Source: a virus | Length of the DNA: 22,417 nt | IMG/VR virus record: IMGVR_UViG_3300028394_000337 | Coordinates: 1-22,417 of that record | Direction: 5' to 3' (one strand) | Part shown: positions 2,125-20,060 of the stretch, piece by piece | Layout of the letters: each line of letters starts with the position of its first letter | Position numbering within the stretch: position 1 is the first letter of the stretch | Notes under the pieces: model-generated | The model's database searches: none | Seen by the model: only the letters and a program-made list of their open reading frames with translations | What the model was told of the DNA's origin: nothing | Program-made: the position numbers and the translations under genes

Positions 2125-2844
2125 CTATGGTGTATTTAGCAGATAATACTGCTCTACACGTTGCCACCATTGCTGGCGATACTGCTCAAATTCTGCACCT
2201 GATATCACAAATTCTTGGTATTCGGGTCGCCCAACAATGTTTCCAGAGTCGTCCATTTCAGGTTTGACACACATTAACACCACACCTTTTCGAATCTCAG
2301 TGCCATGCACTTCATTGTGTGCTTCAGCATAGGCACATAATTGCAAGAAATAATCATCAATCCAGTCGCGCCGTTTGGGCTTATTGGTCTGCTTGTAGTC
2401 CAAGATACTTTGTTCATTTAAATGCACACCAGCGGCGTCGGTGGTTCCTGCATAGATTCCAGGAAAGTATAAAGGAACTTCATATCCCCAAAACTCTGTG
2501 ACGTTACACAAGCCATGATCAATCACAGTCTGCGCCATGATATGGCTTTGTTTACTATACGGGTTACTACCAGCGTCGGCAATCTGTCCAGTTTTTGTAT
2601 AGTCTTCAAGATACTTGTGCATTCTAGTGCCGCGGTTGGCAGCTTCTGTGGTGATGGCCTGTGCCTGTACATGTCCCACTCGGTTACGCCAGTTCTGCAG
2701 AGCCTGCTTTTTTTCTTCAGGCTTGGTAGCTTCCAGGATTGTGGTCACGCTGGGTAATTTACGACCATCTGGTGTGGCATACAGTCTGCGTCCGTCTACG
2801 GTTTCCCTGGGTATGGGTTGATAATTAAATCGGGGGTTATACAT
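2125..2844 (-). CDS. PD-(D/E)XK nuclease, RecB/Cas4-like exonuclease family
   Basis: 239 residues, the usual size for stand-alone phage nucleases of this fold. Motifs in order are RGTRMHKYLE (His76, the helix motif typical of RecB-like nucleases), EVPLY (about residue 122), GTTDA (Asp136), ILDYKQ (Asp149-x-Lys151, the D/E-x-K catalytic pair) and QLCAYA (Gln168, the QhxxY motif). It probably degrades or trims DNA in phage recombination, replication or host DNA breakdown. Only three cysteines are present (about 113, 170, 192), and none lies before the nuclease core as in the four-Cys Fe-S clusters of Cas4/AddB, so an Fe-S cluster is not supported. The start ATG overlaps the end of the SGNH gene upstream by 8 bases. 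Confidence 0.9.
   Translation of the reverse strand: MYNPRFNYQPIPRETVDGRRLYATPDGRKLPSVTTILEATKPEEKKQALQNWRNRVGHVQAQAITTEAANRGTRMHKYLEDYTKTGQIADAGSNPYSKQSHIMAQTVIDHGLCNVTEFWGYEVPLYFPGIYAGTTDAAGVHLNEQSILDYKQTNKPKRRDWIDDYFLQLCAYAEAHNEVHGTEIRKGVVLMCVKPEMDDSGNIVGRPEYQEFVISGAEFEQYRQQWWQRVEQYYLLNTP
2130..2140 (-). promoter_or_regulatory. T4-like late promoter for the tail-fibre-like gene
   Basis: On the minus strand GCTAAATACAC ends 22 bases before the ATG at 2107. It lies within the last codons of the nuclease gene. The same nine bases TAAATACAC recur before the gene starting at 6955. T4 late promoters have a TATAAATA -10 element and no -35 element. Confidence 0.5.
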
Positions 2845-3502
2845 TTTTATGTTTTATCCAATCGTAAAGATAGTCGGCAATCAATTGATGACCATGACTG
2901 TTTGGGTGACGACATGGCAAAAAATATTTACTATGTACCTTTTGCATTGCCAAATATTCATCTTGATTATATCCTAAAATTTGAGTACATGTTTTAGGAT
3001 ATATTTTTTGTTTTTCAATGCCTGGCCAGTCAAATTTCATCTCAATCCAGCCTGAAATATAAAAATCTTGTATACCCACCTGAGAACAAACTTGTTGTAA
3101 TGCTAACATAGTCCGGCAAACATTAAATTCATCCATTGGAGCCGTGGACAAGTATTTGTAGTAAATTTCTGTTATATTTTTAACACGGTCAGGAGAATCT
3201 GGTGGTGGCGGAGTGTTAAAATCAATTATACTTTTGTTATAATCAACTAACAAAGACCTGCCAGGCGTAGTTATAAAAAAAATAGCTATATGATTTTTTA
3301 CAGTTGCATGACAAGAAATGTAATCAAAAAGTTGCGGTAATAATCTGCTTACACTTGATCTTGGTATGGATCCATTATAAAAATTTTTTATTTGTAACCG
3401 ATCACACAGCAAGGCACCGTATGGCTTTTCATCCTTTGGCCAAAGTCCAACTCCAGCTGGCCAACTATCACCAAAGGTGGCTAAATGATCGCTGTTTATC
3501 AA
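2837..3502 (-). CDS. SGNH/GDSL hydrolase-like protein 1
   Basis: 221 residues. Block I is ATFGDSWPAG with the presumed nucleophile Ser13. Block V is HPNSHGHQ near the end (His199). The Asp usually three residues before this His is replaced (PCRHPN), so the enzyme may use a Ser-His dyad or be inactive. SGNH enzymes cleave esters such as acyl or acetyl groups on lipids or glycans; the substrate here is unknown. The start is TTG: TTGA overlaps the stop of iscA, and no in-frame ATG lies upstream of block I. The coding sequence looks more AT-rich than its neighbours, suggesting transfer. Two further SGNH-like genes lie in the window (13368-14090 and 19365-20060). Confidence 0.82.
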   Translation of the reverse strand: MINSDHLATFGDSWPAGVGLWPKDEKPYGALLCDRLQIKNFYNGSIPRSSVSRLLPQLFDYISCHATVKNHIAIFFITTPGRSLLVDYNKSIIDFNTPPPPDSPDRVKNITEIYYKYLSTAPMDEFNVCRTMLALQQVCSQVGIQDFYISGWIEMKFDWPGIEKQKIYPKTCTQILGYNQDEYLAMQKVHSKYFLPCRHPNSHGHQLIADYLYDWIKHKNV

Positions 3503-3819
3503 ATTCTAAAACTTTCTCCGCATCCACAGCGGTCTTTTTCTTGAGGGTTGACAAATTCAAAGCCTTCGTTTAGGCCTGCACGAACATAGTCTACCAACAG
3601 TTCATCCAGGATAGGAAAGTCTTTGGGATCTACTACAATTTTAAAACCATCCGATTCAAACACTAGATCAGATTCTGTCGTGCCATCTACATATTCTAAC
3701 ACATAGGCCAGGCCTGAGCAACCGGTAGTTCTTACTCCCAGTCTTATGCCAATACCGCGGCCTCTACGATCAAGACTGGTGGAAATTTTGCCTGCGGCTT
3801 TGGGGGTGACGTGGATCAA
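3499..3819 (-). CDS. iscA: A-type iron-sulfur carrier IscA
   Basis: 106 residues, one shorter than E. coli IscA and alignable along its whole length (RGIGIRLGVRTTGCSGLAYV, GLNEGFEFVNP, CGCGESF). The three metal-binding cysteines are kept at Cys34, Cys98 and Cys100 (E. coli 35, 99, 101). A-type carriers receive clusters from the IscU scaffold and deliver [4Fe-4S] clusters to target enzymes. The start is TTG, forming a TTGA overlap with the iscU stop, so translation is probably coupled. Its own stop overlaps the SGNH start in the same way. HesB/IscA-like genes are known from phages, but the pairing with iscU is less usual. Confidence 0.95.
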   Translation of the reverse strand: MIHVTPKAAGKISTSLDRRGRGIGIRLGVRTTGCSGLAYVLEYVDGTTESDLVFESDGFKIVVDPKDFPILDELLVDYVRAGLNEGFEFVNPQEKDRCGCGESFRI

Positions 3820-4190
3820 TGTTTTTCTCTGTAGTCTGCGATAGCAGCCTTTATAGCGTCTTCCGCCAGGATGCTACAATGGATCTTGACAGGTGGTAGT
3901 GCAAGTTCCTGGGCGATCTGACTGTTCTTGATCGTGCCCGCCTCATCCAGAGTTTTGCCTTTAACCCACTCGGTGACAAGCGAACTCGATGCGATCGCCG
4001 AACCACAACCATACGTTTTAAATTTTGCATCTGTGATAATTCCATCTTGAACCTTGATCTGTAGTTTCATTACATCACCGCAAGCAGGAGCACCAACCAT
4101 GCCGGTGCCAATGTCCAAGTCGTTGGCATCAAACTTGCCCACGTTGCGAGGATTTTCGTAGTGATCTAATACTTTATCTGAATATGCCAT
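3816..4190 (-). CDS. iscU: Iron-sulfur cluster scaffold IscU
   Basis: 124 residues, full length, very close to proteobacterial IscU (MVGAPACGDVMKLQIKV, KTYGCGSAIASSSLVTEWV, HCSILAEDAIKAA). All functional residues are visible: Cys37, Asp39, Cys62, His104, Cys105 and the LPPVK motif (98-102) that recruits the HscA chaperone. IscU assembles [2Fe-2S]/[4Fe-4S] clusters with sulfur from the desulfurase IscS. Neither iscS nor hscBA or fdx is present here, so the phage scaffold would have to work with the host desulfurase and chaperones. The start is ATG with AGGA about 11 bases upstream. It lies 11 bases after the secreted-protein gene, in one operon from the promoter at 4511-4539. Confidence 0.97.
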   Translation of the reverse strand: MAYSDKVLDHYENPRNVGKFDANDLDIGTGMVGAPACGDVMKLQIKVQDGIITDAKFKTYGCGSAIASSSLVTEWVKGKTLDEAGTIKNSQIAQELALPPVKIHCSILAEDAIKAAIADYREKH

Positions 4191-7544: not shown

Positions 7545-9470
7545 TCAAGTTTTGGGTTGTTGATCTGGATTGTTTTTGGCACGATTGGCGCTGGTAAATC
7601 CACCTGCTAGACGGTTCACAGCCTTGGAGATACCAGCCGGAGTTGCCATTACCCAGCCTTCTTGCCCGGGATGTTGTAGATCCAGCTGTCGTAGTATGTC
7701 CATCTTGATGTCGTGTAGCAAGCCCCAGGCTTCAAATGCCGCGGCCATGCCTTCCAGATTGCTACGTGGGCTTTGTAGGTATTCTACTATGTTGGCAAAC
7801 TTTCTTGGACTCTGTGTGCTTTCGAGCCAAGGTCCAAAGCCGGCAATCAAGTTGTCAAAGTCAGTGCCTACTCTGCTATTAATATAATCAATGCACAGTT
7901 TAGGCAAGTCGGTGATTTGCAAGGCTCGCAGTTCTGCTGGATTGAATAGGCCATCTATGGCCGACCCTGATGTTTTGTATACGTCTCTTAGGGCTTGTAC
8001 CAAGTTCTTATTGGGCCGCACATTTTCTTTGGCATACACAGGTTCTAGTAACAACAATCCTGGAACACGTTTGAAATCAATGTTACCGATTGATTCTTTT
8101 GGCGCACCCGGTTCAGCGTACTTGGTATGCATGGCAATGCCAACTTCGCTATTGCCGATACGTTTTCCAACGTCACTGGCGATAGGAATCCTGTAGGTAA
8201 TAGCATTGGGAGTAAACACAAAATTGCCAGCATCTTCTGGAGGACGATCAGTGTATAACAAATCACCTTGTACATAGCCACGGAATGTCTTGGGCAATGC
8301 GGCACTTAATAAAGGCCATAATTTTTCATATATGGGACCAAGATACTCAACTCGCCCGGCTGGCTTGCCTTTGGCGGCTGCATCTTGATCGCGTTGTGCT
8401 AATAGTCCAATTGCTTGCCGTGGGCTGGTAAACAGGCCATTGTAACCTTTGGCGCCAAAGCCAGACACATCAGTTAGGACAAAAGTTCCGTCTGGATCAC
8501 GTCCAAATACCAGGGCTGGCTTGCCATCCCACTTGACTGTGGTAGTGGCACCAGTGTTCTCTGCTGTGTTCTTTACTATGTCCATGGCCTTTTTAATACC
8601 TGCGCTACCGTTACGGAACACATAGTCTTCTAGATGTTCAATGCCCTTGGCACGACCACCTTGTACTTCAGCTTCTACTATGACCTGCATGCCTTGATTG
8701 ACTATGCGATCTCGCAGTCGGGCCAGGAAGTTTACTTCGTTGTATTCTTGATAAGGATTGACCACGGCACTTTCCATGAATGGAATGCCTTCACGTTCCA
8801 TGTGTGCTCGAAAGTCAGCTAGTTTGGCGTCACGTTTGGGATCTGTGCTTATGGCCTGTAGTATGCTTTCTACACTGGCTAGATCTTGGCGTGTAGCAGT
8901 TTTGTTTAGGAGTAATTTGGCAACTCGATCTGGATCATCAGTGATTAGTTTGTTTGTGGCTCTATCAGCAATACCAGCCACTTGATTCAGTTTGTAACCC
9001 ATACTCTTGGCAAGACTGTTCATTAACACATTACGTTCGCGGCCTTTGAACTTGCTGTCTGCTGGCATGGCTCCTAGCACAAACTTTGACCAAGGCACAT
9101 TGTTCATCAGCATAAAATCAGTTTGCACATACCCAAGATCAGGTCTTCCTGTGATGGGTGTTTTAAAATGTACTGCTGTGCCTGACTTCTTGACCCATTC
9201 CTGTGGCTTGAAGCCGTGGCTGATGGCCCATTGTTCCAGTCTGTGTTGCAGTTGTTCTTTGGAGACCCGGTTGGCATCCACGGCGATATCTAGATCACCC
9301 GACGTGTCTTTGATACCAGTACTACCTAGTGTATTGTTCAGTAGATCCAAGCCTGGGACCAGTTGTTCTAACCAGGCCAGAGTAGGTTTGACATCGGCTT
9401 GATTGATACGCTGTGTGAGCGCACGCCCGTCGGCATCTTTGAATACATTGCCACCTTCAAAAATGTTCAT
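7545..9470 (-). CDS. Fused nucleotidyltransferase (pol-beta type) and ligase-like nucleotidyltransferase
   Basis: 641 residues. The N-terminal domain has the polymerase-beta/MNT-type nucleotidyltransferase signature: LGSTGIKDTSGDLDIAVD with Gly49-Ser50, Asp59 and Asp61, and a third carboxylate in YVQTDFML (Asp118). A second domain from about residue 275 has TTTVKWDGKPALVFG, where K313-W-D-G fits motif I (KxDG) of ATP-dependent DNA/RNA ligases and capping enzymes. GYVQGDLLY (398-406) and EVGIAMHTKY (442-451) are in place of ligase motifs III and IV. The rest is helical, ending in a basic Asn/Gln-rich tail. The ligase-like half resembles an uncharacterised family in T4-like cyanophages (I believe DUF6267; not checked). 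It starts MNIFEGG, with I-F-E fitting a prohead-protease site, and overlaps the previous stop as TAATG. Activity on tRNA, RNA ends or DNA is possible; the substrate is unknown. Confidence 0.9.
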   Translation of the reverse strand: MNIFEGGNVFKDADGRALTQRINQADVKPTLAWLEQLVPGLDLLNNTLGSTGIKDTSGDLDIAVDANRVSKEQLQHRLEQWAISHGFKPQEWVKKSGTAVHFKTPITGRPDLGYVQTDFMLMNNVPWSKFVLGAMPADSKFKGRERNVLMNSLAKSMGYKLNQVAGIADRATNKLITDDPDRVAKLLLNKTATRQDLASVESILQAISTDPKRDAKLADFRAHMEREGIPFMESAVVNPYQEYNEVNFLARLRDRIVNQGMQVIVEAEVQGGRAKGIEHLEDYVFRNGSAGIKKAMDIVKNTAENTGATTTVKWDGKPALVFGRDPDGTFVLTDVSGFGAKGYNGLFTSPRQAIGLLAQRDQDAAAKGKPAGRVEYLGPIYEKLWPLLSAALPKTFRGYVQGDLLYTDRPPEDAGNFVFTPNAITYRIPIASDVGKRIGNSEVGIAMHTKYAEPGAPKESIGNIDFKRVPGLLLLEPVYAKENVRPNKNLVQALRDVYKTSGSAIDGLFNPAELRALQITDLPKLCIDYINSRVGTDFDNLIAGFGPWLESTQSPRKFANIVEYLQSPRSNLEGMAAAFEAWGLLHDIKMDILRQLDLQHPGQEGWVMATPAGISKAVNRLAGGFTSANRAKNNPDQQPKT

Positions 9471-10705
9471 TATCTTGATCTCATTGCTTGTATTATTAGC
9501 TTGTCCCAGAAGTCGTTTCCAGTTTTTTGGGGATCAGGTCCACCAGCTTGATCAGCCAAGGCACCCAAGTTCCGTAACTGGGTTGTAGTCAATCCGGTCT
9601 GGACCGGTTGACCTGGTTGACCTGGTTGACCTGGTTGACCTCGTCGAGCCTGATAACGTAAATTGTTTCCGCCACTGGTGCGCCGATCCCAATCAATCAC
9701 ATGATTGGCTGCAGTGGCCAATGCAAAAATATCGTGTAGGGATTTTTGCTGGGCTGGAATATCTCCATTCAAACTGACCACTTGATTTATTAATTTTTCT
9801 ATTCTGAGTTTTAGTTCAGGAACACCGGCTTCCACTGTTTTTAAATCAATGGTGCCCAGTTGGCTGTCGATCCATGTCCTTATATCCTTGGATAAATTTA
9901 AATTAGCTTTAGCTACATCAGGCGAGACAGGCGAGAGTTGTCCTGCCATGTTAGAAAATGCCTGTGCGCCATCTTCCTTAATTCCTTTTCTAGCAGCAGA
10001 TTTAATTGCCAGCTTGTCTGAAGCGGTTTGCTGGAACGCTGGCTTGGCTTTTGCGGCATCAGCGGCAGTTTTAATTTGTGCATCTTCTGCATTCTTGGCG
10101 GCATTTGCTTGTTGCGTAGCGGCCATTTGCTGTTGTGCCTGTTTTTGGCCCGCTTGTCCAGCAACCTGTTTAATTGCTGTATTTTTCTTTAATTGGTCCA
10201 GGTCCAACGATTGACCTTGTGTTGTCGGGATTGCTGGTTGTACAGTTGGTTGTACAGTTGGTTGTACAGTTGGTTGTACAGTTGGTTGTACAGTTGGTTT
10301 GGCTGTATGGCGAACGGTTCGCGCAGTTGTAGTTGCTACCCCTCCGGTACTGGTAGGCGTGTTTCCGGGTGTTCGTTTGCTTGCAAGAGTTTTTGCTTCC
10401 TCAGGCCATTTGGCAACTATGCCGTCAATCCACTGTTTAGCGACTGGATTTACTTTTAATTTAGCCAAGGCTGAGTCCAGGGTGGGTTTTTTATCTAGTC
10501 CGTCTTTTTTGCCTTGTGCTATAGCTTTTGCGGCATAATCTTGATATCTGGCCTGTTGGGCTTCTTGATCGGCCTTTTGATTTATTAAACTTTTGCCGCC
10601 AGTCTTCCATGCTGATTTGGCCTGTGCGAACACACTGTCAGGACCAACCCAGTCAACTTCATCTAGTCGGGTTTTTTTGGGCTGGGTTAGTTCATGAATT
10701 TGCAT
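9470..10705 (-). CDS. Low-complexity repeat protein, probable virion-internal or structural protein
   Basis: 411 residues. It starts MQIHELTQ, sharing the M-x-(I/L/F)-x-E pattern of three neighbouring proteins. An N-terminal helical part is followed by a Thr-rich linker with five PTVQ repeats (about residues 137-156), a long Gln/Ala/Lys-rich helical region (about 165-240), a folded part (about 245-340) and four GQP repeats (about 355-366) before a short C-terminal domain. No family is recognised. The many Gln/Ala helices and repeat linkers fit an elongated, multi-domain virion protein. It overlaps the gene upstream by 14 bases and the nucleotidyltransferase gene by one base (TAATG), so the three are co-translated. 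Confidence 0.82.
   Translation of the reverse strand: MQIHELTQPKKTRLDEVDWVGPDSVFAQAKSAWKTGGKSLINQKADQEAQQARYQDYAAKAIAQGKKDGLDKKPTLDSALAKLKVNPVAKQWIDGIVAKWPEEAKTLASKRTPGNTPTSTGGVATTTARTVRHTAKPTVQPTVQPTVQPTVQPTVQPAIPTTQGQSLDLDQLKKNTAIKQVAGQAGQKQAQQQMAATQQANAAKNAEDAQIKTAADAAKAKPAFQQTASDKLAIKSAARKGIKEDGAQAFSNMAGQLSPVSPDVAKANLNLSKDIRTWIDSQLGTIDLKTVEAGVPELKLRIEKLINQVVSLNGDIPAQQKSLHDIFALATAANHVIDWDRRTSGGNNLRYQARRGQPGQPGQPGQPVQTGLTTTQLRNLGALADQAGGPDPQKTGNDFWDKLIIQAMRSR
9606..9641. repeat. Four tandem copies of a 9-bp unit
   Basis: Perfect copies of ggttgacct (plus strand) encoding GQP repeats in the gene at 9470-10705. The unit length is a multiple of three, so copy-number change would keep the frame. 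Confidence 0.95.
10236..10295. repeat. Five tandem copies of a 12-bp unit
   Basis: Perfect copies of ggttgtacagtt (plus strand) encoding PTVQ repeats in the same gene as the 9-bp array. Identity at the DNA level implies recent expansion by slippage or unequal recombination. There are no spacers, so it is not a CRISPR array. Confidence 0.97.
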
Positions 10706-10957: not shown

Positions 10958-10966
10958 TATTATTTA
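10958..10966 (-). promoter_or_regulatory. T4-like late promoter opening the structural block
   Basis: Minus-strand CAATAAATAATAC, core TAAATAATA, identical over nine bases to the core at 7519-7527. It overlaps the stop of the radical SAM gene and lies 17 bases before the ATG at 10940. Confidence 0.55.
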
Positions 10967-11974
10967 TTGTTTTTGTCCACATATATCATCACAAATAACC
11001 AAACGGCCGTGCTTGTATTTGTCAATGGCCCAACTCTCTTCTATAGAATTAAACCATTTTATACACTCTTCTATTGGATAGTTTAATGCATTATTTTTCA
11101 CAATCAATGGTGTTAATTGGGCATTAACTGCTTCATGATATTGTCCACTACCATAGGTTTTAGGGTAAAAACCAGTCCAACAACAAGGACTAACATCACC
11201 GGTAGCAGAAATATATATTGATTTTAAAATTTTAGTTTTACAACTGATAGACTGTGCAGGCACTCGATCTATTGTAATATCTTCAAGTAAAATTTGATCT
11301 GTTTTTTTCTTGTGGAACAATATTTCAAAACTTTTTTCACCAGTATAATTTCCTAATAAATGAGTCAAATTTCCATTTTTATCAAATACTGGGGCAGTAT
11401 CACGTCCTTCATTAACCATGTAAAACTGTTTGAATCCAATATCTTTACTCATTTCTTGACATTGAGAAATTTGATGTGAGTTATGATCAAACTTAATCAT
11501 TTTCCAAAGTGCGTATCCGCCTGACGCAATAAATGTTTGAGCATTACGAATTACCGTCTTCCATACGGTATTTTGTCTGTATAAATGATGCGTATCTTCT
11601 AGTCCATCAAGACAAAACGATACCCGTACTGGAGTTTTTGCTAATTGTATCCAGAACCTACTATCTCTTGCACCCCCGTTGGTACTGATAGTAACCAACA
11701 ATTTTGGATTTATACTAAAAAAATAATCAACAATATCTGCTCCCTCTGGGTTCATTACAATGTCGCCAAAGTTACCATTGATACGTATGCTTGTTAATTG
11801 AATTAAAAAATCTGTAGTAAAAACTTTTTTAGCGTGTTCTAATGTAAAGTTTATTTCTGGGTATCCTCCATTATAAGGATATCCCCAAAATGTTCTGGGA
11901 CACCAGGGACAACTAGCATTACATAGACTAGAAATTTCTAAATGAACATCCAGAATGTCTTGATATTCTATCAT
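10964..11974 (-). CDS. Radical SAM enzyme with SPASM/Twitch-like C-terminal cluster domain
   Basis: 336 residues. The [4Fe-4S]/SAM motif is LCNASCPWCPR (Cys18, Cys22, Cys25; CX3CX2C), followed by a radical-SAM barrel (SIRINGNFGDIVMNPEG, VTISTNGG, VSFCLDGLEDTH). The C-terminal part has Cys245-X13-Gly-X4-Cys264, matching the opening CX9-15GX4C of SPASM domains, then Cys265, Cys304, Cys328 and Cys332, enough for at least one auxiliary cluster. SPASM enzymes modify peptides, proteins or small molecules; the substrate here is unknown. The gene looks clearly more AT-rich than the helicase upstream, suggesting acquisition. ATGA overlap with the helicase stop couples translation. Its need for Fe-S clusters may connect it to iscU/iscA. 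Confidence 0.9.
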   Translation of the reverse strand: MIEYQDILDVHLEISSLCNASCPWCPRTFWGYPYNGGYPEINFTLEHAKKVFTTDFLIQLTSIRINGNFGDIVMNPEGADIVDYFFSINPKLLVTISTNGGARDSRFWIQLAKTPVRVSFCLDGLEDTHHLYRQNTVWKTVIRNAQTFIASGGYALWKMIKFDHNSHQISQCQEMSKDIGFKQFYMVNEGRDTAPVFDKNGNLTHLLGNYTGEKSFEILFHKKKTDQILLEDITIDRVPAQSISCKTKILKSIYISATGDVSPCCWTGFYPKTYGSGQYHEAVNAQLTPLIVKNNALNYPIEECIKWFNSIEESWAIDKYKHGRLVICDDICGQKQ

Positions 11975-13374
11975 GACGTTTTAATTTGTCCCAAAAGTTG
12001 TTTTAATTTAGCACTTTGTACGTCGGCTGTAATCTTACTAATTTCACCAGTGGTCTGATCTACTGTTTCTGTTGGAGTAACTCTGCTTTGTGCCTTGATA
12101 CTTTCATAGATGTTGGGCTTTTTAAAGCCTCCTCCAGTCTGTTCATCTTCGCCTGGATCCGTGATACGCATGGTTTCAATGTTGTAGTCCAGGTCAATCT
12201 TCATGCCCACACCTGTACTGCTTCTTGACTTCATGCATTGTATTTGATATTTGCCACGTTCTTTCATGGCCCTGCTTGTAAAAATACCAAACACATTGTC
12301 CGCAGTATTGATCTTGCTTATACCACCTGAAATATGGCTATGATCAAACTCCACTTCCTCTACTGCACTACGATTCAACTGTGACGCAGTCACAAATAAC
12401 ACATTGAGTTCTTTGGCCAAGTTCCGCAGTTCTTCACTCACATACTTGTCTTTGACAAACAGATCATTTGGACTAACCTTGGCCGACACTGGCATCAGCA
12501 AGTCTAGATAATCACACATGACAAAGTCTACACGGATACCAGTCTGTACTTGCACTTCTTTTATATAACTACGGATGTCATTGATTGTGCTCTGCGCTGG
12601 TATGGCCTTGATTCTATACTGTCCAGCCTTCTTACTGACCAGTTTAACTTTCAGTTCTGTTTGGTCAATGTCCTTGCGTATTTCTTTTGTGCTCATTCCA
12701 GCCAACATGGCATCAGTCCTTAGGGCACACAGTTCTTCGCTTAATTCCAAACTGATATACACTCCACTTAGACCGGCCTGGAGCCACGATAATGCTATGT
12801 TCATCATGACCAGACTCTTGCCCGATCCCGACCCACCAGCAAAGATGTTGAGTTCTCCGCGACTGAATCCACCATACAAGATACGATCCATCTGTGGCCA
12901 CCCTGTGCTGACTTGCCCACCTGAATTAAAATACCGGTCTATTCGAGCTCTTGGATCAGCCCAGTAGTCTGTGCCCATGTCCTTGGTCAAGCTGATCTGC
13001 ACTGCATCTTTGATCAGTTTTTCTACCGGATCATACTCGCCTTTTTCCAGCAAGTCTGCACTCTTTAAAATTGCACGTTCTAGTTCTTGGCGTCGGGTGA
13101 ATGCTTCAAACTCTTCCATGAACCAGTCAAAGTGCCCTGCGTTAAGATCAGGAATGTGTTGTAGTCGAACCCCTGTTGTTGCGCCGATCTGTTCAGCAGA
13201 AGGCAGTGTTTTATGATCATTGCTGTGCCGGGCAATGAACTCAGCCGCTGGTCTGAGACTACGATCAAAGTTTTCTGGATTATAAATGTTCTGCACACGC
13301 ACATAACTCTCTGCGTCTTGCAACATCATTTCTAAGAATAGTCGTTGGACATCAAGTCCGTAATCTTTTAACAA
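11971..13374 (-). CDS. 41: Replicative DNA helicase, gp41-like (DnaB/RecA fold)
   Basis: 467 residues, matching the 475 of T4 gp41. The N-terminal helical domain (about 1-130) is followed by the RecA-like motor. Walker A is GGSGSGKS (180-187), followed by the H1a-like SLELSEELCALR. Walker B is VDFVMCDYLDLL (about 282-293). ASQLNRSA and the HISGGISKINTADNVF stretch correspond to H3 and later motifs of DnaB-family helicases. It forms a hexamer that unwinds at the fork and works with the primase encoded just upstream. The start is TTG inside a 16-bp repeat also found at the start of the preceding SGNH gene; AAGGAA lies upstream. The last part is a flexible Thr/Lys-rich tail. Confidence 0.96.
   Translation of the reverse strand: MLKDYGLDVQRLFLEMMLQDAESYVRVQNIYNPENFDRSLRPAAEFIARHSNDHKTLPSAEQIGATTGVRLQHIPDLNAGHFDWFMEEFEAFTRRQELERAILKSADLLEKGEYDPVEKLIKDAVQISLTKDMGTDYWADPRARIDRYFNSGGQVSTGWPQMDRILYGGFSRGELNIFAGGSGSGKSLVMMNIALSWLQAGLSGVYISLELSEELCALRTDAMLAGMSTKEIRKDIDQTELKVKLVSKKAGQYRIKAIPAQSTINDIRSYIKEVQVQTGIRVDFVMCDYLDLLMPVSAKVSPNDLFVKDKYVSEELRNLAKELNVLFVTASQLNRSAVEEVEFDHSHISGGISKINTADNVFGIFTSRAMKERGKYQIQCMKSRSSTGVGMKIDLDYNIETMRITDPGEDEQTGGGFKKPNIYESIKAQSRVTPTETVDQTTGEISKITADVQSAKLKQLLGQIKTS
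13359..13374. repeat. 16-bp direct repeat, copy at the helicase start
   Basis: cgtaatcttttaacaa (plus strand). It is identical to 14075-14090 and encodes the first five codons (MLKDY) of the helicase. Both copies are preceded on the minus strand by AAGGAA and an A/C-rich spacer. Confidence 0.97.
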
Positions 13375-14090
13375 AGTTTGTTCCTTTGCATAGTTGGTAG
13401 TAATGAGTTTTCAAAAAAATATTTGTTTCCTGCTGGACCATGGTGTCCCTCGGGCATGTCAGAGTCAGCTGGCCTATTGACACCAATGTTGATGCCATGG
13501 TAAGTATCTTCGAATAATATGCATTTCTGATGATTCATACAGTAAGGCAATACAAAATTGCTAGGACCCCATATGTTATTTTTATCAAAGTCTTTGCTTA
13601 AATTAAGTATCATGTAATTTGCATTGATGCTGTCTAACCATTTAGTTAGAAAAAATACTGTTCTTAATACTTGAGTTTCTAACCAAGAACGGTCGTGATG
13701 TATAATCAATTCTTTATCTGTACCGTAATTTTGCAACGATACCAACCCACGATGTACCGCTATATCAAACGGTTGATCTTGCCAGGTCTGTGTATCAATT
13801 GTATGTCCTATATATTCAGTATTTTTGTGATTGTCAAACACCGTGATTCTTTCCAACGGAGGAACACCAATTAATACAAGATCTGTGTTCCACATTATTT
13901 CGTTTTGTAATCCAACTACTAACTGGCAAACAGCATCAAAACTATTGACAGGTCTGGAACAGTTTTTAATTGTGCGAATGCCAAGATATGAGGCTAGCAG
14001 TCCCCAAAAACTATCGTTGGGCTCTACACAAAGACCTGGCGTGGTATAGCTATCACCAAATACCCAAAGTTTATCGTAATCTTTTAACAA
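13368..14090 (-). CDS. SGNH/GDSL hydrolase-like protein 2, inserted between primase and helicase
   Basis: 240 residues. Block I is WVFGDSYTTPG. A block-III-like IGVPPLERI follows, and near the C-terminus DMPEGHHGPAGN supplies the candidate catalytic His in HHGPAGN. The DMP(E/D)G motif is shared with the SGNH-like protein at 19365-20060. The start is TTG (TTG TTA AAA GAT TAC), and its first five codons are identical in DNA to those of the helicase. It overlaps the end of the primase gene by 20 bases and the helicase start by 7. The sequence looks AT-richer than the flanking replication genes. Ester hydrolysis of a lipid, glycan or peptide substrate is expected from the family, but the target is unknown. 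Confidence 0.83.
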   Translation of the reverse strand: MLKDYDKLWVFGDSYTTPGLCVEPNDSFWGLLASYLGIRTIKNCSRPVNSFDAVCQLVVGLQNEIMWNTDLVLIGVPPLERITVFDNHKNTEYIGHTIDTQTWQDQPFDIAVHRGLVSLQNYGTDKELIIHHDRSWLETQVLRTVFFLTKWLDSINANYMILNLSKDFDKNNIWGPSNFVLPYCMNHQKCILFEDTYHGINIGVNRPADSDMPEGHHGPAGNKYFFENSLLPTMQRNKLC

Positions 14091-15024
14091 GTTGTTTCTT
14101 CCTTAGTTCAATTTTAATTCGACTGGTCTCTTTCGATCGCATTATAGTTAGCAAAGTAGCCAAACGTCCCATACAAATTACTGCATCGTTTACATCTTTG
14201 ATTCCGGTTGGCCACTCTGGCATGCTTACACTCCAACCTAGCTCAACAGCACGTTCTACCAATCGCATGCCCGGTACATCTTGATCTGGCACAACAACCA
14301 CTTCTCGTTCAAGGCTTCTTACAAGTCTAGCCTGTGCGTCATTTATGTCTGCATGTAACACAGCCACACCATTGATGCTGAGTGCATCAAATACTCCTTC
14401 TACCAGGATCACTGTCTGCCAGTTATTCCGTTGTAGGTCTGTGCCAAATACATATCCTGGTTGTATATCTTGGATATACTTGGGTGTCCTATCGTCTAAG
14501 AATCTTGTGGTGTGTCCAACTATCTGCCCTTCGTAGGTAAATGGTACGACGATTCCAGGCCGTGTGCCTCGCTTGGACAGGTATGGATAGTCTAACATAA
14601 TACCTCGCTTGGTCAAATATGCTTGGGCTGTGTCTGTTAGTTCTTCAGTGTCGGCTGGTAAATCGCATTCTTCAAATTCTATCTCAGCAGGTCTAACAGC
14701 CTGTTGTCGTTCATTCAGTATGCCTTCGATATTCCTATGTCGTAAACTTTCAAGATTGATACGTTCGATTTCTTCTTGTGGCACATTCAACCAGGTCAAC
14801 AACTTGCGAGCTTTGAATGTAAGTGTGCGACCAAGTACAAAACTGGCAGTGTATTGACAATTGAAACAGTGGAAACTCCAGCCTTGGTCTGTGTTTTTTA
14901 TACCACCACGCTGTCGTCTATCAGCAGATTCACTGTTGTGTACGCAACAAGGGGCATTGAAACTGATCCAACCACCAGAGGTCTGTTTGCGTTTTGCAGG
15001 TAAGAAAGCGATCACATCAATCAT
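14071..15024 (-). CDS. 61: DNA primase, gp61-like (CHC2 zinc ribbon and Toprim)
   Basis: 317 residues, close to T4 gp61 (342). The zinc-binding part is CCVHN...FHCFNCQY (Cys26, His29, Cys53, Cys56). The Toprim domain has VILVEGVFDALS (Glu209) and VVVVPDQDVPG (Asp247, Asp249), the metal-binding residues of primer synthesis. It makes RNA primers and partners the gp41-like helicase. An extended -10 promoter TGCTATAAT ends only 5 bases before the ATG and there is no Shine-Dalgarno, so the mRNA may be leaderless. The last codons (KKQLVKRLR) lie over the 16-bp repeat that forms the start of the inserted SGNH gene. Confidence 0.95.
   Translation of the reverse strand: MIDVIAFLPAKRKQTSGGWISFNAPCCVHNSESADRRQRGGIKNTDQGWSFHCFNCQYTASFVLGRTLTFKARKLLTWLNVPQEEIERINLESLRHRNIEGILNERQQAVRPAEIEFEECDLPADTEELTDTAQAYLTKRGIMLDYPYLSKRGTRPGIVVPFTYEGQIVGHTTRFLDDRTPKYIQDIQPGYVFGTDLQRNNWQTVILVEGVFDALSINGVAVLHADINDAQARLVRSLEREVVVVPDQDVPGMRLVERAVELGWSVSMPEWPTGIKDVNDAVICMGRLATLLTIMRSKETSRIKIELRKKQLVKRLR
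14075..14090. repeat. 16-bp direct repeat, copy at the primase end/SGNH start
   Basis: Identical to 13359-13374. It lies at the 3' end of the primase gene and forms the first five codons of SGNH 2. The two copies bracket the SGNH gene. Confidence 0.97.
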
Positions 15025-19339: not shown

Positions 19340-19368
19340 ATATTACAGTAATTAAAGGTAAAAGTCAA
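19340..19368 (-). promoter_or_regulatory. Sigma70-type promoter of the operon 19333-16650
   Basis: Minus-strand TTGACT (19368-19363), 17-base spacer, TAATAT (19345-19340), then six bases to the ATG. The -35 box overlaps the stop codon of the SGNH 3 gene. Confidence 0.7.
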
Positions 19369-20060
19369 GCCCATTTAGCAGTTTGTTGAACAAGCAGATC
19401 AAAAAATTTCTTGTGTGCAGTGGGTGGGTTATGATTGATGATTCTGGTTCCAACGCCATCGGGCATGTCCCAAGGTTGTGTGCCTTGCCAGACTGGGAAT
19501 CCCGACCAATCAAAATAGAACAACGGGCCTGGAATAAACAAATACGGAATACCAGCACGATCAAGTTCGCGTAGTCCGTCTCGAATGATATAATAGTTGC
19601 GTCGATCTTCTATGTCAAAGTTGTGTACATCACGCAGGTATTGTTTCACAGTGTCTTTTGTTGTGCTATCTAAATCGGTATAGCTGTGCTCGATCACGTT
19701 GTTGAGTGTGTCACTTATGATGCAGGCCTGTGCGGCATTGACCCATTGTTCACTAGCGGCATGATAATTTCTGTAGTGGATTAGATCCAATCTGATGGGC
19801 AAGTTTTGACTGTAGGCCTTGCCCGCGACGTCGATACGGTCACTACTGGTTGCACCCACTATGACATAATCAGCATGATCCTGTATGGCACGTTCTATCT
19901 GTAGATGTATGCAGAAGTTGGTGGCTCCAGGTCTGGCTAGACTCACATGTTGCCATCCGCGATGGTCGGCATACTGATCCAGGAAACTGGGTTGGTCAGG
20001 CCAGCGAGTGTCTGTACTCATGAAACTGCACCCTAGCGAGTACACCGTTGTCATTTCCAT
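19365..20060 (-). CDS. SGNH/GDSL hydrolase-like protein 3
   Basis: 231 residues. Block I is VYSLGCSFMSTDTRWPD, with Ser in a GCS context as in many phage members of the family. Block II is SLARPGATNFCIH. A block-III-like VGATSSDRIDV follows. The C-terminus has DMPDGVG followed by INHNPPTAHKKFF with a candidate catalytic His. The DMP(E/D)G motif is shared with SGNH 2. The usual Asp three residues before the His is not seen. The start is ATG at 20060, overlapping the uvsW stop by 10 bases; a second ATG at 20054 makes an ATGA overlap and is equally possible. Composition looks like that of its neighbours, unlike the two other SGNH genes. Substrate unknown. Confidence 0.82.
   Translation of the reverse strand: MEMTTVYSLGCSFMSTDTRWPDQPSFLDQYADHRGWQHVSLARPGATNFCIHLQIERAIQDHADYVIVGATSSDRIDVAGKAYSQNLPIRLDLIHYRNYHAASEQWVNAAQACIISDTLNNVIEHSYTDLDSTTKDTVKQYLRDVHNFDIEDRRNYYIIRDGLRELDRAGIPYLFIPGPLFYFDWSGFPVWQGTQPWDMPDGVGTRIINHNPPTAHKKFFDLLVQQTAKWA

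Follow-up and report, generated by a model that had tools for sequence, protein, structure and literature searches.

An apparent hotspot of gene gain, loss and exchange at the primase/helicase overlap of uncultured giant-type phages

Background

How can a phage add a gene between two essential genes whose coding sequences overlap, without breaking either of them? The question is raised by the IMG/VR virus record IMGVR_UViG_3300028394_000337, of which a stretch of 22,417 nucleotides (hereafter the window) was analysed. On its minus strand a DNA primase gene is followed by a gene for a predicted SGNH hydrolase and then by a DnaB-like helicase gene, and the middle gene is bracketed by two copies of a 16-nt sequence. 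The initial annotation, made from the letters of the window alone, regarded this repeat as the footprint of a cargo gene whose insertion duplicated the translation-initiation region and so kept the helicase expressed.

Results

The 16-mer CGTAATCTTTTAACAA (minus strand, TTGTTAAAAGATTACG) occurs twice in the window, with no third copy (Table 1). Each copy begins at the TTG start codon of an open reading frame, that of the SGNH gene or that of the helicase, and AAGGAA lies 8 nt ahead of the former and 6 nt ahead of the latter; the sequence and the ORF positions thus confirm the arrangement as initially described. The last 20 nt of the primase gene overlap the start of the SGNH gene, and the SGNH stop codon TAA (13368-13370) falls within the downstream copy, in TTGTTAA. 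AAGGAA also precedes the helicase TTG in relatives that have no gene between primase and helicase (empty relatives). Judged from its position, the upstream motif would serve the SGNH gene in the window and the helicase in empty relatives.

Table 1. Features of the primase-helicase junction in the window
Feature	Position	Strand	Basis or remarks
DNA primase (Toprim)	14071..15024	-	Toprim_2 1.3e-5; phrog_47 DNA primase 6.6e-33
AAGGAA ribosome-binding site, inside primase end	14099..14104	-	sequence
Upstream repeat copy (L)	14075..14090	-	primase tail LVKRLR in one frame, SGNH codons 1-5 (MLKDY) in the other
SGNH/GDSL-fold hydrolase (predicted), inserted cargo gene, 240 aa	13368..14090	-	AlphaFold2 pLDDT 92; Foldseek to GDSL hydrolases
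AAGGAA, new helicase ribosome-binding site, inside SGNH 3' end	13381..13386	-	sequence
Downstream repeat copy (R)	13359..13374	-	helicase codons 1-5 (MLKDY)
DnaB-like replicative helicase	11971..13374	-	DnaB_C 4e-21; phrog_19 3.5e-73

Apart from two short tandem-repeat tracts, this 16-mer is the only exact repeat of at least 16 nt in the window, and dinucleotide-shuffled windows contain 0.28 such repeats on average. The repeat alone is not extraordinary, but its register at two starts is. The SGNH and helicase genes have 13 nt in common directly after the start codon, and none of 2,765 non-adjacent control gene pairs shows 10 or more identical nucleotides there. Two other IMG/VR records, L002 and L004, each from a different sample, match the window at 100% across the junction (7.8 and 10.7 kb), and therefore the repeat is not an assembly artefact. 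Short tandem repeats at 9606-9641 and 10235-10298 both lie within the coding sequence of the ORF at 9470-10705, and the second encodes repeated PTVQ units.

No domain was found in the SGNH protein of the window by Pfam search, and Pfam, PHROGs and a PDB sequence search together returned nothing useful, so that its identity comes via the fold alone. The predicted AlphaFold2 model matches GDSL/SGNH hydrolases in Foldseek, and the best PDB matches are GDSL/SGNH enzymes (for example 3bzw, 4rw0 and TesA). Residues G12, D13, S14, N43, D209 and H216 are invariant across 25 SGNH sequences, and these positions supply the hallmarks of an SGNH/GDSL hydrolase, namely the N-terminal GDS, the conserved Asn and the C-terminal Asp/His block. 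The cargo is thus a predicted SGNH/GDSL hydrolase; a free-standing homing endonuclease was rejected for this gene, which has an SGNH fold and no Pfam or PHROG match. The family was seen at the primase-helicase junction alone: 77 of 79 loci have both neighbours and the other two lie beside the helicase. The stop codon of 30 of 66 SGNH genes falls within the downstream TTGTTAA, an arrangement that would couple translation of the neighbouring genes. In the L083/L453 insert, two tandem SGNH genes both begin with LLKKYN codons, so that the start region is present there one more time. Two more SGNH-like genes of the window, at 2837-3502 and 19365-20060 (both minus strand), have unrelated neighbours and short overlaps; they gave no Pfam or PHROG match and no repeated start was detected. 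At 3499-4190 (minus strand), two adjacent genes resemble, by eye, NifU/IscU-like and IscA-like iron-sulfur cluster assembly proteins.

Relatives were gathered from IMG/VR with SGNH, helicase, primase and radical SAM queries, which yielded 420 loci with both neighbours, 248 of them distinct at the junction; all the junction alleles are metagenome assemblies. The distinct junctions comprise 122 empty and 126 filled alleles. A 23-nt overlap of primase and helicase is present in 105 of the 122 empty alleles, with the sequence AAGGAAGAAACAAC followed by TTGTTAAAAGATTACGGACTTGA, where the helicase starts at the boundary between the two parts and the end is the primase stop. This overlap is nearly invariant, with four variants among 77 empty loci. 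When the SGNH gene and one of the repeats are removed from the window, the empty-site overlap sequence is left, and the fused junction that the initial annotation predicted from such a deletion is present exactly in empty relatives; in L134, for example, the identity with the joined flanks of the window extends to nucleotide 45 of the helicase. No empty junction without the repeat sequence was encountered among the relatives lacking the SGNH gene. Filled relatives in which the two starts share no sequence, which had been named as evidence against the footprint, do occur in part: many copies have diverged from each other, and certain cargo families start with codons of their own.

Primase and helicase are also adjacent, with no gene between them, in five cultured giant phages (PA5oct, Atu_ph07, Phosso, Vibrio 2.275.O and XaC1), so that the empty state is the older, ancestral one. 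The window helicase is 48% identical to that of Pseudomonas phage PA5oct. On the helicase tree, parsimony counts 32 changes of occupancy, of which at least 13 are forced by well-supported branches, in trees that are disturbed by recombination. To judge from these alleles, the primase/helicase junction appears to be a hotspot that gains, loses and swaps genes in a large group of uncultured giant-type phages.

The inserts measure ~0.6-3.7 kb and fall into about 25 gene clusters. The SGNH family of the window is one of the two largest; the other is a radical SAM family, whose relatives are also found elsewhere. Other cargos are a methyltransferase, a sulfotransferase-like gene, a B12-radical SAM gene, HNH and GIY-YIG/NUMOD3 endonucleases, and unnamed ones. 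The primase end is overlapped by 114 cargo genes. For 69 of them the start agrees with that of an empty site at 12 or more of 15 positions (at most 3 mismatches), a match reached by 0.5% of random start codons. At least eight unrelated cargo families match the helicase start at 4 mismatches or fewer (LLKDY, LSKxY), and the match is fused where their relatives have a start of their own. Both states coexist in the radical SAM family (captured LLKDYGNWCPE, native MSHNWCPE) and in a second SGNH type (captured LLKKHSELKQVLICADS, native MRILVCGDS). A sizeable minority of the junction cargos combine their own start with a recoded primase tail, and therefore duplication of the overlap is common but not universal. 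In the window, a radical SAM gene (10964-11974, minus strand) directly follows the helicase and overlaps its stop by 4 nt, and in many relatives a different radical SAM family begins directly at the helicase stop; this suggests a second cargo site downstream of the helicase.

The initial annotation had also proposed a search for other cargo genes flanked by copies of a neighbour's start. Among 700 adjacent gene pairs of the window and ~0.8 Mb of four relatives, sharing of more than 8 nt after the start codon was seen at the primase-helicase site only (in the window and in G003). With no other such junction in the ~0.8 Mb, generality of the arrangement in these genomes is unsupported.

The two copies differ in what they preserve. 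Upstream copies keep the primase residues LVKRL and tolerate drift in the other frame (25 changes silent for the primase only, 6 for the helicase only), and downstream copies keep the helicase residues LKDY while the primase frame breaks (33 changes silent for the helicase only, 0 for the primase only). Since the 23-nt overlap encodes both primase and helicase, an insertion must leave each gene one copy, and this accounts for the persistence of the repeat. As each copy keeps one duty, the doubling frees a dual-coding stretch. The two copies of one locus differ at 2.70 of 12 positions, compared with 2.95 of 12 between random loci (permutation P 0.024, relatedness ignored). A match barely better than random suggests that many of the duplications happened long ago or moved along with the cassette, and the coupling was rejected, as too weak, as proof of fresh duplication.

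Comparison of filled and empty alleles with similar flanks provides clues regarding where the exchanges end. The filled L003 and L371 and the empty L062 and L370 are about 95-98% identical on both sides of the junction, the only group with both flanks near-identical. Relative to L062, L003 has gained a 724-bp cassette; it retains the resident ATGCTTAAAGAATAC as upstream copy, and its downstream gene opens with foreign TTGTTA before resident sequence returns from about codon 3. The insertion reading largely holds, with a refinement drawn from this pair: the overlap that was already there is the upstream copy, and the cargo brings the ribosome-binding site and start that lie downstream. Compared over 600 nt, the empty L095 shares 99.8% identity with the window as far as the upstream copy and 88.7% past the junction; excision of the window's own cassette was rejected as the origin of L095, since the helicases differ by 11%. 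L086 and L083 have nearly identical helicases (right flank 99%) and differ in the first codons and the cargo. One derived upstream copy, TTGTCAAACGCCTAC, precedes an SGNH gene in L104 and a radical SAM gene in L045, and L015 keeps the SGNH-type start LSKKYNK ahead of an unrelated gene. The near-isogenic pairs, together with the swap of cargo behind a kept start, place crossovers within the start region. In these individual pairs, the breakpoints lie in a short sequence common to both partners. The SGNH proteins of the window and L003 are 83% identical but the primases of the two 58%, which points to transfer of the cargo. L096 and the window part inside the primase, and the flanking genes also recombine freely. 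A RecA/UvsX-type recombinase is encoded in all six large relatives, by a search (phrog_97) that also matches cellular genomes via RecA.

Discussion

We consider it likely that the cargo genes are exchanged as cassettes by homologous recombination at the start region, and that the two copies are kept since each serves one of two essential genes. Ancestrally, the end of the primase, the opening codons of the helicase and the helicase ribosome-binding site are all packed into the 23-nt overlap and the bases directly before it. In the filled state the cargo gene lies within this overlap and the resident copy remains with the primase; the resident start codon leads into the cargo as an in-frame fusion, and the old start signal of the helicase would thus serve expression of the cargo. 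The helicase resumes at a duplicate of its initial codons, presumably expressed from the ribosome-binding site in the 3' end of the cargo, and each copy retains one of two former coding duties. Such a first duplication event is what we infer. Later, start regions at cassette ends could pair with that of an empty or differently filled junction, resulting in gain, loss or swap with no need for a new duplication. The enzyme would probably be the phage RecA/UvsX-type recombinase, acting in mixed infection. The insertion footprint proposed initially is supported; the repeat by itself does not prove a special insertion enzyme. More tentatively, and with some doubt on our part, the overlap could be a reusable docking site, where a population-wide set of one-gene cassettes, all with the helicase ribosome-binding site and first codons at their end, circulates among giant-type phages through recombination in the start region, primed by junction-specific homing endonucleases. 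If true, any arriving gene would at once be translated within the replication operon.

Chance identity of the two start regions deserves little space. An exact 16-mer repeat is indeed expected 0.28 times in a shuffled window, but the register with two consecutive starts, found in 0 of the 2,765 control pairs, and the recurrence of this pattern in dozens of relatives already refute it, and its probability is practically nil. The filled state might instead be ancestral, with the empty alleles derived by deletion between the repeats. Such a deletion would yield the exact empty sequence, and losses surely happen; however, the cultured relatives (helicases 40-48% identical) all have adjacent primase and helicase, and the filled L003 lies nested within a group of empty ATGCTTAA alleles, so that we find this history quite improbable. 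Another possibility is that random illegitimate recombination strikes anywhere and that the survivors are those that leave the primase its tail and the helicase its start, the repeat never being used for recombination. The constraint of each copy by a different protein fits this explanation, as do the own-start cargos, which would be other tolerated solutions, and the confinement of the signature to one junction in ~0.8 Mb, expected if a long coding overlap is required. It agrees less well with breakpoints within the repeat in near-isogenic pairs, with the cargo swap behind a kept derived start and with many unrelated families fused at the same five codons; we regard it as possible but not likely.

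Homing offers a different driving force: endonucleases encoded at the junction would cut the overlap of empty phages, repair from a filled partner would copy in the endonuclease, the neighbouring cargo or both, and recoded helicase starts would protect the filled alleles. The near-invariant overlap is the kind of conserved target that homing endonucleases choose. Inserted genes with an endonuclease domain are present at the junction in L124 and L130 (HNH_3) and in L052, L243 and L482 (NUMOD3/GIY-YIG type). In L243 an SGNH gene and a GIY-YIG/NUMOD3 endonuclease stand in tandem, possibly a cargo-plus-driver cassette, and L482 retains most of the empty-site sequence upstream and has the recoded helicase start ATGCTTAAAGATTATTC. 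Yet these are the only such alleles, about 5 of 126 filled ones; GIY-YIG or HNH_3 genes occur in three of six large relatives, all elsewhere in the genome, and the other three have none above the cut-off. Moreover, the cleavage sites of T4 free-standing endonucleases lie hundreds of bases, or further, from the endonuclease gene itself (PMC2988022). We therefore think homing an unlikely explanation for the locus, and one that may drive part of the cassette traffic. A transposon with target-site duplication was also considered. The insert does have a short direct repeat at both ends, with one copy in the empty site, and the copies are coding and diverge by constraint; the transposon was rejected, there being no transposase and no inverted repeats at the insert ends, and a single ORF fills the insert.

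Exchange by recombination at the start region, the reading we favour, implies that phages can add genes inside an essential overlapping pair with neither gene broken, the overlap being doubled with one job per copy, and that the newcomer receives a ready-made start signal. The hundreds of natural alleles at one site make the entry of cargo into tight phage operons directly testable.

Our literature search found no report of many unrelated cargos repeatedly capturing the start of a downstream gene in a dual-coding overlap. Several known systems show partial parallelisms. Morons, as usually defined, have their own promoter and terminator. Like them, the cargos here are extra genes between genes that are adjacent in relatives; unlike them, the cargo uses the resident translation start, and the insert overlaps the coding sequence of both neighbours, with little room for a promoter or terminator of its own. 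PeSLs, promoter/stem-loop motifs between genes, are reportedly mobile regulatory cassettes of T4-type phages, said to have been described by Arbiol in 2010 and Comeau in 2014. They are cited in PMC4503421 as mediating shuffling in T4-like phages. Both they and the present repeat are repeated sequences at gene borders that serve modular shuffling, but PeSLs are regulatory and lie between genes, whereas the repeat here is coding sequence with a ribosome-binding site and a start codon. The free-standing homing endonucleases of T4-like phages also lie at gene junctions, several without their own promoter and with an 11-24 bp overlap with the upstream gene (PMC2988022), and endonucleases of the same broad kinds are found at the primase-helicase junction. 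In contrast to them, most cargos here, including the SGNH gene of the window, are non-endonuclease genes that begin, by fusion, with a duplicate of the downstream gene's start. Finally, gene 68 of Island3 is present in one of two near-identical mycobacteriophages, Island3 and Brujita, bounded by a repeated neighbour gene end of about 50-60 bp, and was explained by general recombination between the repeat copies (PMC3029335). As at the junction described here, a gene is flanked by a short direct repeat of its neighbour's sequence. However, Island3 presents one case with one gene and a 3'-end repeat, whereas at the primase/helicase junction the repeated sequence is a translation start located where two genes overlap, used by many unrelated cargos and represented by hundreds of alleles.
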